Of a stretch of DNA of 64,000 bases, positions 30,782 to 59,216 are shown piece after piece. Every line of letters starts with the position of its first letter. Positions within the stretch are counted from its first letter, which is position 1. The notes under the pieces are model-generated. The model was not told where the DNA came from and did no database searches. It was given only the letters and a program-made list of their open reading frames with translations. Source of the DNA: Marivirga atlantica (GTDB taxonomy: Bacteria > Bacteroidota > Bacteroidia > Cytophagales > Cyclobacteriaceae); assembly GCF_016734805.1 (NCBI RefSeq), contig NZ_JAERQG010000004.1, positions 496,001 through 560,000 of the forward strand. The letters are read 5' to 3'. The position numbers and the translations under genes are program-made.

Positions 30782-30812
30782 AAAAACCCTGACGGGAGCC
30801 GTCAGGGTTTTT
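30782..30812 (-). terminator. Intrinsic terminator after secreted nuclease gene
   Basis: A 14-bp stem (AAAAACCCTGACGG / CCGTCAGGGTTTTT) with loop of three and a T-run on the minus strand, 26 bp after the nuclease stop. It is nearly identical to the terminator at 38051-38081. Confidence 0.92.
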
Positions 30813-38050: not shown

Positions 38051-38081
38051 AAAAACCCTGACGAGAGCCGTCAGGGTTTTT
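38051..38081 (-). terminator. Intrinsic terminator after upstream TonB-receptor gene
   Basis: A 13-bp stem (AAAAACCCTGACG / CGTCAGGGTTTTT) with a five-base loop and T-run on the minus strand, 22 bp after the receptor stop codon. The surrounding 37 nt differ at one position from 30781-30817. Confidence 0.9.
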
Positions 38082-57471: not shown

Positions 57472-58698
57472 ATGAAAATGCGTTTAGTTCTATTCTACTT
57501 ATGTTTTGCAAGTTTAGGTTTTGCACAAAACAAGCAAAAACCCCAGCAATACGTAGTTTTAGTCTCGTTTGATGGATTCAGACATGATTATGTAAAGTTA
57601 TATAACACGCCAAATTTTGATAAACTCATTAAAAAAGGGGTGAGTGCAAAATCATTAATTCCCTCCTTCCCCAGTAAGACCTTCCCCAATCATTATACTC
57701 TAGTAACAGGTCTTTATCCAGCTCATCATGGTTTGGTAGACAACAACTTTTTGGATAGAGATAGAGCAGAAGTTTATACTATGAGCAAACGTGCATTGGT
57801 GCAAGATGATTATTACTATGGAGGCCAGCCTTTATGGCAGTACGTTCATAAATTCGGTTTGAAGTCAGCCTCTTACTTTTGGGTAGGCTCTGAAGCTCCC
57901 ATCAATGGCAGTTATCCTGATTATTACTATCAATATGATGGCTCAGTAAGTAATGAGCAAAGAATTAAGCAGGTGACTAAATGGTTGAAGCTTCCGGCCG
58001 ATAAAAGACCTCAATTTATTAGCCTCTATTTTTCATTGGTCGACTCACAAGGACATAGAAATGGACCTGTATCAGCGGGCGCAGCTCAAGCTGTTGAAGA
58101 AGCTGATAGGCTATTAGGTAAACTGATGAAACAAATCTCTAAAAATGATTTAGCAATTAATCTGATCGTAGTTTCCGATCATGGCATGAGACAGTTAGCA
58201 AATAAACAAGAAACGTTCTTACAACTAGATGATTTTGTAGACTTAAACTCCCCGGATTATAAAGTAGTCAATAGCGGAACTCACGCCCAGGTTTATTTTT
58301 CAGATAGCAGTAAAATTGATGAGTTGTTTAATGGGCTTTCCAATCAGCAGTTTATTAAAGTTTATAAAAAAGGTAAATTTCCTGAACACTGCAATTATAA
58401 TGTTAAGAGTAATAGAATTGGTGATTTAATTATTACTACCGCAGAGAATAATAAAGTATTAAGCACAAGAAATTGGTCTCCTGGTGACTCAGACTATATT
58501 GGCGTACACGGATATGATCCTATTATAGAAGACATGCACGGGATTTTCTATGCCAAAGGCCCCGCTTTCAAGAATGGAATTAGAACAGCTTCTTTCGAGA
58601 ATATACATGTATATCCTCTCATTTGTCAAATTCTGGGTATTCCTATCCCTGATGATATTGATGGTACTATTGAAAAGCTCTCATCGATATTAAAATAA
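57472..58698 (+). CDS. NPP-type nucleotide pyrophosphatase/phosphodiesterase (alkaline phosphatase fold)
   Basis: About 408 residues with a signal peptide (MKMRLVLFYLCFASLGFAQ). An alkaline-phosphatase superfamily domain of the ectonucleotide pyrophosphatase/phosphodiesterase branch follows. The metal Asp34 is in VSFDGFRHDY, the nucleophile Thr70 in SFPSKTFPNHYT, Asn73 stabilises the intermediate, and later ligands are in SLVDSQGHRNGP, VVSDHGM and SGTHAQV. It probably hydrolyses nucleotide or phospholipid phosphodiesters in the periplasm. ATG at 57472 is preferred over TTG at 57451. It is divergent from the imelysin operon. Confidence 0.94.
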   Translation: MKMRLVLFYLCFASLGFAQNKQKPQQYVVLVSFDGFRHDYVKLYNTPNFDKLIKKGVSAKSLIPSFPSKTFPNHYTLVTGLYPAHHGLVDNNFLDRDRAEVYTMSKRALVQDDYYYGGQPLWQYVHKFGLKSASYFWVGSEAPINGSYPDYYYQYDGSVSNEQRIKQVTKWLKLPADKRPQFISLYFSLVDSQGHRNGPVSAGAAQAVEEADRLLGKLMKQISKNDLAINLIVVSDHGMRQLANKQETFLQLDDFVDLNSPDYKVVNSGTHAQVYFSDSSKIDELFNGLSNQQFIKVYKKGKFPEHCNYNVKSNRIGDLIITTAENNKVLSTRNWSPGDSDYIGVHGYDPIIEDMHGIFYAKGPAFKNGIRTASFENIHVYPLICQILGIPIPDDIDGTIEKLSSILK

Positions 58699-58750
58699 AA
58701 AATCCTGATAGTTTTTGCTATCAGGATTTAAAGAAGGGTGAAAGATGGGA
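58692..58750. repeat. Direct repeat, left copy (tRNA-His 3' end plus terminator)
   Basis: This 59-bp segment matches 59097-59155 at 52 of 59 positions in the same orientation. Six of the seven differences are the hairpin loop, which is TTTTTG here and its reverse complement CAAAAA there. The shared part includes the last 15 or so bases of the tRNA-His gene (CATCTTTCACCC on the minus strand). Confidence 0.85.
58700..58729 (-). terminator. Intrinsic terminator, left copy, downstream of GIY-YIG gene
   Basis: A 12-bp stem (AAATCCTGATAG / CTATCAGGATTT) with loop TTTTTG. The long T-run is on the minus strand, so it chiefly terminates leftward transcription from the GIY-YIG gene. For the plus-strand phosphodiesterase gene only TTT follows the stem. 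Confidence 0.8.
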
Positions 58751-58776
58751 TGGTGACGAAGCAGGGCTTGTCACCA
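58751..58776 (-). repeat. Palindromic hairpin downstream of GIY-YIG gene
   Basis: On the minus strand TGGTGACAAGC pairs with GCTT-C-GTCACCA around loop CCT, an 11-bp stem with one bulged C. It adjoins the left direct repeat. Its outer arm TGGTGA equals the first bases of the tRNA-His 5' end. Confidence 0.75.
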
Positions 58777-58796
58777 TGATGACCGAAGCGTCATCA
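58777..58796 (-). repeat. Second palindromic hairpin overlapping the GIY-YIG stop codon
   Basis: On the minus strand TGATGAC / GTCATCA (7 bp) encloses GCTTCG. Its first three bases are the TGA stop of the GIY-YIG gene. It shares arms TGrTGAC/GTCAyCA and the GCTTCG core with the adjacent hairpin. Confidence 0.75.
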
Positions 58797-59090
58797 CTCA
58801 ATCTTATCTACCAATTCTCTTCCTTGAAAAGTCAATTCGTTTGAATATTTGTTTATGAACAAGAGAAGTTTCGTTCTATTTAGATTTTTCAGTTTTCGTT
58901 CTAGTGCTAAAGCTTCCTTCCTATTCTCTTTTGTTGTTACCCAAACCAAAAACCAATCATTAGCTCTGGATGTATAATACTCATTACCACCTAGATGATA
59001 TGATAGTCTCTCATCAAAATTTGAGGTCTGACCTTTATAAAATCTATCTAAAACACTTGAATAAAGAACATACACTTTAAAAGTTGGCAT
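58794..59090 (-). CDS. Small GIY-YIG nuclease family protein
   Basis: A 98-residue single-domain GIY-YIG endonuclease of the YhbQ/UvrC-N-like type. The GIY-equivalent is VYVLYSS (7-13) and the YIG-equivalent FYKGQTSN (17-24), with the catalytic Arg at about 28 and Glu in KEALALERKLKN. No DNA-binding domain is fused. It lies 405 bp-wise between two direct repeats carrying the tRNA-His 3' end, with two hairpins at its 3' side, which suggests it belongs to a small mobile unit rather than to cell repair. Confidence 0.9.
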   Translation of the reverse strand: MPTFKVYVLYSSVLDRFYKGQTSNFDERLSYHLGGNEYYTSRANDWFLVWVTTKENRKEALALERKLKNLNRTKLLLFINKYSNELTFQGRELVDKIE

Positions 59091-59096
59091 GCCTTA

Positions 59097-59155
59097 AAAA
59101 TAAAAAATCCTGATAGCAAAAACTATCAGGATTAAAAGAAGGGTGAAAGATGGGA
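59097..59155. repeat. Direct repeat, right copy (within tRNA-His 3' end and its terminator)
   Basis: Counterpart of 58692-58750. It runs from the A-run beside the GIY-YIG start through the terminator into the T-arm of the tRNA-His gene. The loop of the hairpin is inverted relative to the left copy. Confidence 0.85.
59106..59133 (-). terminator. Intrinsic terminator of tRNA-His
   Basis: An 11-bp stem (AATCCTGATAG / CTATCAGGATT) with loop CAAAAA, followed on the minus strand by T6, starting about 9 bp after the tRNA 3' end. Confidence 0.88.
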
Positions 59156-59216
59156 CTCGAACCCACGACCTCCTGAACCACAATCAGGCGTTCTAACCAA
59201 CTGAACTACGATCACC
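59142..59216 (-). tRNA. tRNA-His (GTG anticodon), acceptor stem with two mismatches
   Basis: On the minus strand: acceptor GTGATCG preceded by the His-specific G-1, D-stem GTTC/GAAC, anticodon stem CCTGA/TCAGG with loop TTGTGGT (anticodon GTG), variable AGGTC, T-stem GTGGG/CCCAT with loop TTCGAGT, and 3' acceptor strand CTTTCAC plus C73. CCA is not encoded. Pairs 5-68 and 6-67 are T-T and C-T mismatches; CGATCAC would pair perfectly. The altered strand lies in the duplicated segment. A consensus promoter precedes it. Confidence 0.92.

Follow-up and report, generated by a model that had tools for sequence, protein, structure and literature searches.

Group I introns bearing nuclease genes are found in tRNA genes as insertions that leave a working tRNA, and integrative elements at tRNA 3' ends (phages, integrative and conjugative elements, tycheposons) restore the tRNA with a copied 3' end. 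In systems of repetitive extragenic palindromes (REP) and REP-associated tyrosine transposases (RAYT), hairpins are linked to a small nuclease gene. Known homing enzymes of the GIY-YIG type carry an additional DNA-binding domain, and SegB, the phage enzyme to which reference is made below, is a larger protein than the nucleases considered here. SegB loci are described as tandem repeats of a tRNA plus the nuclease gene, with a 718-bp unit in T6 (PMC13096335). The present analysis concerns a small GIY-YIG nuclease unit adjoining tRNA-His of Marivirga atlantica, located in a stretch of 64,000 nucleotides (contig NZ_JAERQG010000004.1, positions 496,001 to 560,000), which is referred to in the following as the window. 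This locus is one case of a recurrent design and a member of a large tRNA-linked family. We give an even chance to the interpretation that the locus represents, in single copy, a family of minimal GIY-YIG units that are homing-like, occur all over the Bacteroidota and parasitise tRNA genes.

Along the minus strand, the unit comprises tRNA-His, a terminator, the GIY-YIG open reading frame (ORF), two palindromes, a copy of the tRNA tail and a second terminator (Table 1); since tRNA-His itself is encoded on the minus strand, the unit lies 3' of it. An earlier, sequence-only reading of the window had described direct repeats of 59 bp, 405 bp apart, each containing the tRNA-His tail and its terminator, and this was confirmed with 88% identity between the two copies, the tRNA part being limited to the last 15 nt (59141-59155, copied at 58736-58750). 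The GIY-YIG gene reported between the repeats matches Pfam family PF01541 at 3.7e-12 (residues 6-73), and the two palindromes can be recognized by eye. It also holds that no recombinase is encoded, as the GIY-YIG ORF is the sole ORF of at least 60 aa fully within the 405-bp unit. The locus displays the copied tRNA 3' end typical of tRNA-integrating elements in the form of the 59-nt repeat, and it encodes no integrase. The partial tRNA copy behind the nuclease gene, here called the decoy, is a strongly truncated case in the window, with tRNA-His reduced to 15 nt behind two hairpins. The terminator hairpins of the two repeat copies are exact reverse complements of each other, so that the hairpin is inverted in one of them. 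Apart from this unit, the window harbors a second pair of terminator-like hairpins (30785-30809 and 38054-38078, 7.3 kb apart) with a one-base difference (AACCCTGACGGGAGCCGTCAGGGTT; A for G at position 11).

Table 1 Features of the tRNA-His unit in the window (positions of the 64,000-nt stretch)
Feature	Position	Strand	Basis or remark
Intact tRNA-His (gtg), host gene of the unit	59141-59215	-	ARAGORN; Rfam RF00005 on L014
Near copy of the 59-nt repeat: final 15 nt of tRNA-His and terminator (hairpin 59105-59133)	59097-59155	-	
GIY-YIG nuclease ORF, 98 aa	58794-59090	-	ORF list; PF01541 3.7e-12; invariant alignment columns
Palindrome 1, overlapping the ORF stop codon	58778-58795	.	By eye
Palindrome 2, adjoining the copied tRNA tail	58750-58777	.	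By eye
Decoy: last 15 nt of tRNA-His, copied	58736-58750	-	Census: tRNA positions 61-75 at +390
Far copy of the 59-nt repeat: tail and terminator (hairpin 58701-58729, loop inverted relative to near copy)	58692-58750	-	
Single 405-bp repeat period	58692-59096	-	Within the range of tandem-array units elsewhere (346-499 bp)

The same arrangement recurs in the genome of M. atlantica itself (4.19 Mb, 33 tRNA matches), which contains ten PF01541 matches, two of them in long frames (603 and 472 aa; presumably one UvrC-like gene plus another) and eight in small genes. Five of the eight are located directly 3' of a same-strand tRNA, namely His, Asp, Asn, Leu(taa) and Val(tac), the last of these genes being broken by a stop; a search for further copies, as advised by the sequence-only reading, was rewarded with units at four other tRNAs. 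A sixth gene lies 226 nt behind transfer-messenger RNA (tmRNA) and the remaining two elsewhere. Under random placement, the probability that at least five of eight such genes start no more than 120 nt 3' of a same-strand tRNA is 1.3e-15, and thus the linkage to tRNAs exceeds chance. All five tRNA units terminate in a copied tail of their own host tRNA followed by a terminator, and in all five a foreign palindrome is found inside or ahead of the tail copy, examples being TACCGATAGCTATCGGTA for Asn, where it falls in the T loop of the copy, TACCGAAAGCTTTCGGTA for Val and TCCCGATGAATCGGGA for Asp. In a census covering 32 of the 33 own tRNAs, downstream partial copies scored at least 30 at all five GIY-bearing tRNAs and at most 26 at the others, barring the intact tandem pairs Lys and Glu and tRNA-Trp, which had too little downstream sequence to be testable. 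Upstream partial copies were prominent at Asp (score 66) and Thr(tgt) (74). Together with Pro(tgg) (24), the upstream copy at Thr(tgt) looks like a scar without nuclease gene.

A group I intron was rejected as explanation of these loci, as tRNA-His of the window is uninterrupted (ARAGORN) and an Rfam gathering search at the eight own loci matched tRNA and tmRNA only, with no intron. Likewise, the idea that the palindromes are an abundant repeat of the species was discarded: the pattern TCCCGA...TCGGGA occurs at only 14 places in the genome (reversed control pattern: 4 places) and is absent from the window. Four of these 14 places fall at two GIY-YIG loci and several sit in CGTCATTCCC...-type stretches. 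One GIY-YIG copy (L006, C6:1230999) is embedded in palindromic stretches of the latter type; both this copy and that at C7:160976 (L012) belong to a second GIY-YIG clade of 14 rows, for which no tRNA linkage was seen in the genomes read.

Beyond M. atlantica, 66 GIY-YIG matches from 18 relatives were evaluated, matches in long frames being left out. Of these, 28 are located within 250 nt 3' of a same-strand tRNA or tmRNA (two behind decoys which ARAGORN calls tRNA-Gly). For 13 more, the distance to the preceding tRNA or tmRNA is 250-900 nt, and they comprise 12 later array copies and one gene displaced from tmRNA; one further match has a tRNA just downstream and four are at contig ends. Sampling at class level included 60 genomes with the own one among them, of which 42 match the family profile and 18 have no match at 1e-8. 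Here, 75 matches in 69 loci were read (about half of the listed places, mostly weaker ones, were left out, and owing to an overlap between L141 and L157 a few genes enter the count twice), with 31 matches at most 250 nt behind a tRNA or tmRNA, two at 250-900 nt, five with a tRNA just downstream and six at contig ends. An opposite-strand tRNA within 250 nt was found in none of the 149 rows from the own genome, the relatives and the class. Finally, 36 of 61 genomes drawn from the whole phylum, some of them shared with the class draw, match the profile, and in 17 of 27 new loci read a match follows a tRNA or tmRNA at no more than 250 nt. A single genome of this draw accounts for 22 matches, with eight tandem units among them. 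Variations of the design exist as well. In mirror-image units at Asn (L136), Ser (L148), Thr (L139) and Arg (L187 and L142), a promoter and/or a 5' tRNA part precedes the nuclease gene and the intact tRNA follows it, both promoter and 5' part being retained in L136 and L148. Two units at Pro (L016 and L158) lack a terminator, and their start codon is located at the tRNA end. An Rfam search of 20 loci without upstream tRNA revealed no common RNA family, with only single matches to tRNA, Acido-Lenti-1 and, below threshold, tmRNA.

The nuclease lineages partly track the isotype of their tRNA. On a tree of 65 tRNA-linked nucleases, from which tRNA-less rows and later array copies had been left out, the isotype labels require 26 changes compared to 47.4 in shuffles (0 of 200 as low); in a smaller quick tree keeping tRNA-less rows, 19 changes compare with 38.5. 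Val forms one clade (9 of 9 rows, support 100/99, three family codes) and so does Glu with its two rows, while Met takes 3 changes for 12 rows and Asp 6 for 7. Independent of this tree, a search for Val-type protein motifs was performed over contigs of 84,980 species, and the best 80 of 232 relatives were examined. Of these 80, 59 carry a same-strand ARAGORN call within 120 nt upstream, namely 50 Val(tac), one Val(aac), five Arg(tct), two Met(cat) and one unclear, and ten have a call further upstream (eight Val(tac), one Arg(tct), one unclear); the other loci have a tRNA downstream (4), are cut (5) or lack one (2). Altogether, tRNA-Val is the nearest same-strand upstream tRNA in 59 of the 80. 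All 80 loci are labelled Bacteroidota (Cyclobacteriaceae, Chitinophagaceae, Flavobacteriaceae, Bacteroidales, Sphingobacteriales and others) except for one in a Streptomyces-labelled metagenome bin, which is probably mis-sorted. The Val-type enzymes at Arg(tct) and Met(cat) would represent cases of isotype switching. By likeness to the anticodon arm of Val, Arg(tct) takes rank 2 of 31 and Met(cat, L289) rank 4; the corresponding ranks are 5 and 3 for the D arm, and Met(cat) comes first for the acceptor, so that anticodon-arm likeness is weakly supported at best as predictor of such switches.

These results bear directly on a purely local history of the locus, in which the tRNA tail and terminator would have been tandemly duplicated around a bystander nuclease gene, the palindromes being unrelated dispersed repeats. 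Such a history would be compatible with the TCCCGA-type palindromes that also occur away from tRNAs in the own genome, and tandem duplication alone could account for the growth of arrays. Nevertheless, it fails to explain why units at many isotypes, and from many family codes, share one design and orientation, conflicts with the chance placement calculated for the own genome and is rendered very unlikely by the fact that Val-type protein motifs lead to tRNA-Val.

Further insight into the design comes from the decoys of the 50 closest Val loci, in 42 of which the far tRNA copy could be aligned. The last 33 tRNA positions of these decoys match the intact copy in 37-42 of the 42 loci, whereas the first base matches in 3 and anticodon-arm positions in as few as 8. 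In 40 of the 42 (manual count; exceptions L261 and L266), the anticodon arm is exchanged for a hairpin beginning with T(C/T)C(C/T)G, the inner bases of which vary yet remain paired apart from a few mispairs. Among the 39 of 50 Val loci that could be scored for their terminators, 23 show an identity of at least 0.9 between near and far copy, compared to a median of 0.62 between loci. Several of the remaining loci possess a pair of distinct, well-formed terminators; this would be expected if the near one had arrived with the unit and the far one were the host's, but may also reflect divergence after duplication. ARAGORN calls some hairpin-swapped decoys tRNA-Gly(ccc), Cys(gca) or Ile(tat) (L050 and some of L196-L275), and hence such decoys may stand as wrong-isotype tRNAs in public annotations. 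Nuclease-less decoys are found beside tRNA-Val in L317 and L320. Those of L317 are hairpin-swapped as well, and a comparison of L316 and L317, which belong to one genus, revealed the tRNA-Val cluster to be inverted relative to its flanks.

Based on this anatomy, a homing-like cycle can be proposed for the family. A unit would consist of the restoring 3' part of the host tRNA with a terminator, a small GIY-YIG gene in tRNA direction and a decoy, the latter being what is left of the original tRNA after its displacement, with a hairpin in place of the arm that presumably was the target. We infer that the nuclease cuts an unoccupied tRNA gene within the tRNA and that the break is then repaired from an occupied copy, with the intact tRNA 5' half and the decoy 3' half serving as homology arms. 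In the product, an intact tRNA would be followed by the nuclease gene and by a decoy which can no longer be cut owing to its hairpin. Transfer between cells is presumed as well. Recombination between tails, terminators and nuclease genes could subsequently multiply, remove and homogenise units. Since the tRNA remains functional, a unit should cost its host little. The asymmetry of the decoys is what one would expect if their 3' part served as homology arm next to a target site that was destroyed, and mirror-image units would fit the opposite arm. The sequence-only reading had placed the insertion at the tRNA 3' end, with duplication of tail and terminator: the insertion-like nature of the unit is retained here, while, judging from copies elsewhere, the break point may rather be internal to the tRNA gene, in the anticodon arm in case of Val.

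The decoy hairpins might, however, be the substrate of the enzyme rather than a disabled target. In this alternative, an SLX1-like, structure-specific nuclease would act on decoy hairpins or cruciforms or on single-stranded tRNA DNA, and repair of its cuts between the tail-terminator repeats would result in scarless excision or tandem growth, with spread relying on the conserved tRNA tail homology. This would agree with hairpins that differ in sequence but mostly retain pairing, with the inverted terminator hairpin in the window and with the share of TCCCGA...TCGGGA places at own GIY-YIG loci. The solved structures closest to the bare GIY-YIG domain point in the same direction, since profile comparison ranks UPF0213 (1zg2 and 1ywl; 1e-18 and 1.4e-15) and SLX1 (7cq2 and others; 9.5e-9) first. 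What such an activity leaves unexplained is that Val-type nucleases stay with tRNA-Val and that the anticodon arm of Val decoys is so regularly replaced by a hairpin; it is considered unlikely, albeit the most serious competitor to homing-like units.

Often, units occur as tandem arrays of 2-8 with spacings of 346-499 bp (match positions), for example three each at Glu (384 bp) and Asn (392 bp) and two each at Met, Asp, Val and Leu. In the arrays inspected, a unit runs from the nuclease gene through a pseudo-tRNA of the host isotype, one arm of which is swapped for a hairpin, to a terminator. The largest array (L365:1380-4400) comprises eight tandem units, its leading tRNA being only that portion of an initiator-like tRNA-Met which extends 3' from the anticodon loop; possibly, this array has moved off its tRNA or the 5' tRNA half has been lost.

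Occupancy of a given tRNA is patchy. A check for empty sites in relatives, also advised by the sequence-only reading, was successful: tRNA-His was recovered in 12 of the 18 relatives (it was not in the other six) and is unoccupied in all 12 (up to 220 nt inspected, less in one at a contig end), with no PF01541 place nearby. At a convergent Asn/Leu locus, units are found on Leu in G4 and on Asn in G6. Occupied and unoccupied alleles among relatives, as seen at tRNA-His and at this locus, are what a SegB-like homing enzyme would leave. Moreover, the Asn unit is present twice in G6 and once in its near relative G9, and the sequences suggest that the junction of this copy-number change may lie within the ORF. 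Approaching the His junction via the neighboring dihydroorotase-like gene was of no avail, as no tRNA stands beside that gene in the 8 relatives with a close match; the neighborhood of tRNA-His is not conserved among relatives. As a side observation on tRNA-His, its anticodon stem reads TCGGT/ACCGA in three genomes of the same genus (L107, L110, L111) and CCTGA/TCAGG in L096-L099 and L101, with anticodon and ends in agreement between both groups.

The window protein itself possesses the GIY-YIG domain and the residues that define the superfamily. Across 17 aligned family members, Y7, Y18, G20, R28, H32, E64 and K68 are invariant and all are kept in the window protein; five of them (Y7, Y18, R28, H32, E64) are presumably the catalytic residues. 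Purifying selection acts on the nuclease in most pairs tested, with a ratio of nonsynonymous to synonymous substitution rates (dN/dS) of 0.04-0.22 in eight between-species pairs within Marivirga. Such constraint, along with the vertical pattern described below, would also be expected of a domesticated gene, where nuclease and decoy serve the host in the upkeep of tRNA loci or against elements that integrate at or attack tRNAs and the duplicated tRNA end is a by-product. Weak matches of 3-4 of the 17 family members to the PADLOC models PDC-S14, UzuA or HEase may hint at such a role, yet the window protein itself has no PADLOC match. Considering in addition the patchy occupancy at tRNA-His, the broken copies, arrays of up to eight units and the class genomes lacking a match, domestication appears improbable, more so than a structure-specific nuclease. 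In PHROGs, three nuclease families match 2, 1 and 1 of the 17 members (best E 6e-5), the window protein not being among them.

Several observations weigh against homing-like units as an explanation. In Marivirga, divergence is roughly equal for units and flanks or somewhat greater for the units, so that no recent transfer is seen there and descent looks mostly vertical; nuclease-driven mobility, which the sequence-only reading considered possible, is not apparent in this genus. With its 98 aa, the window protein is little more than a catalytic domain: no separate DNA-binding domain was detected by Pfam, whose only other match is SPOR (E 0.13) below cut-off, and the homing endonuclease I-TevI ranks last among the solved relatives (9.9e-4), behind UPF0213 and SLX1. 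A tRNA is lacking nearby in 20 of the 66 relative and 31 of the 75 class matches; 12 of the former form, together with two own genes, a separate clade without tRNA in any row. Ten of 12 listed isotypes are non-monophyletic (Met, Asn, Ala, Asp, Leu, Arg, Pro, tmRNA, Ser, His), and Val takes 4 changes in the smaller quick tree with tRNA-less rows. Eight of the 50 Val loci show no clear decoy (two of them running off the contig), and 13 of 58 mixed-isotype loci score below 28 in the decoy test, in which pairs of unlike isotype reach 31 at the 95th percentile and 47 at the highest; because tRNAs resemble each other, a decoy score alone proves no decoy. Nuclease genes are broken at Val in G0 and G4 and at Met in G7, and dN/dS amounts to 0.35-0.69 in three G6/G9 pairs, three further pairs being saturated. 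As a restored tRNA re-creates any target inside it, sequence alone would leave the carrier unprotected; for SegB, its authors discuss that the donor allele may be cut inefficiently and that stray breaks may be repaired (PMC13096335). Finally, no tblastn match of the window protein was obtained in phages or plasmids, and viral contigs contained no relative of the window protein or of the Val-type set. On these grounds, cargo of a phage or plasmid was rejected as well. All in all, the observation behind the sequence-only reading was confirmed, and its interpretation is partly supported.

A locus outside tRNA genes deserves mention in this context. On the minus strand of L353 (G146), a GIY-YIG domain (1501-1713) lies next to an RNase P RNA match (982-1481), and the GIY-YIG ORF may be situated inside the RNase P RNA gene, as if in its P3 loop. 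Upstream of the ORF, AGGAAAGTC could pair with GACTTTCCT at the RNase P RNA 3' end, a pairing we take to be helix P1, and the ORF is flanked by a 19-nt inverted repeat (CCCCGCACATAACATTTAA and complement). Rfam, in turn, placed the whole RNase P RNA after the ORF.

If the homing-like reading is correct, many of the small GIY-YIG genes of Bacteroidota would be explained. It would also reveal a nuclease gene living on essential RNA genes without splicing or integrase, and a natural set of nuclease-target pairs would be at hand on which target choice by a minimal domain could be studied. In its boldest form, to which we assign somewhat less than an even chance, the reading would establish a new class of selfish elements across Bacteroidota. 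Measuring about 0.4 kb and restoring the gene they enter, such units would have nuclease lineages tied to particular tRNA genes; they would break and rebuild tRNA genes (plus tmRNA and perhaps RNase P RNA), leave behind hairpin-swapped pseudo-tRNAs that act as protective scars, and would have driven repeated turnover and tandem growth of tRNA loci. Among the matches listed in the open-licence literature, no description of such units in bacterial chromosomes was found.

Compared to known systems, the units differ from group I introns in that the tRNA is restored by a duplicated part and not by splicing, and from tRNA-integrating elements in lacking an integrase and comprising a single gene in about 0.4 kb. 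Mobility in the manner of REP-associated transposases, invoked in the sequence-only reading, has nothing in its favor beyond the presence of hairpins, and REP/RAYT was rejected: there is no Y1 transposase according to ORF list and Pfam, and the hairpins here are located in or at copied tRNAs. UPF0213 and SLX1 are the closest solved relatives of the nuclease by profile, but neither is known to be part of tRNA-bound repeat units. The closest analogue is phage SegB. This free-standing GIY-YIG homing endonuclease of T-even phages shares with the present units a position beside tRNA genes of many isotypes and is not intron-borne (PMC13096335). Likewise, the nuclease gene here adjoins its presumed target without intron or intein, as judged from adjacency and the lack of an Rfam intron match. 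Unlike SegB, which amplifies phage loci, the units described here are chromosomal, encode nucleases of mostly about 80-100 aa, are each attached to a single tRNA and comprise, in addition to a duplicated terminator, a decoy tRNA in which one arm is swapped.

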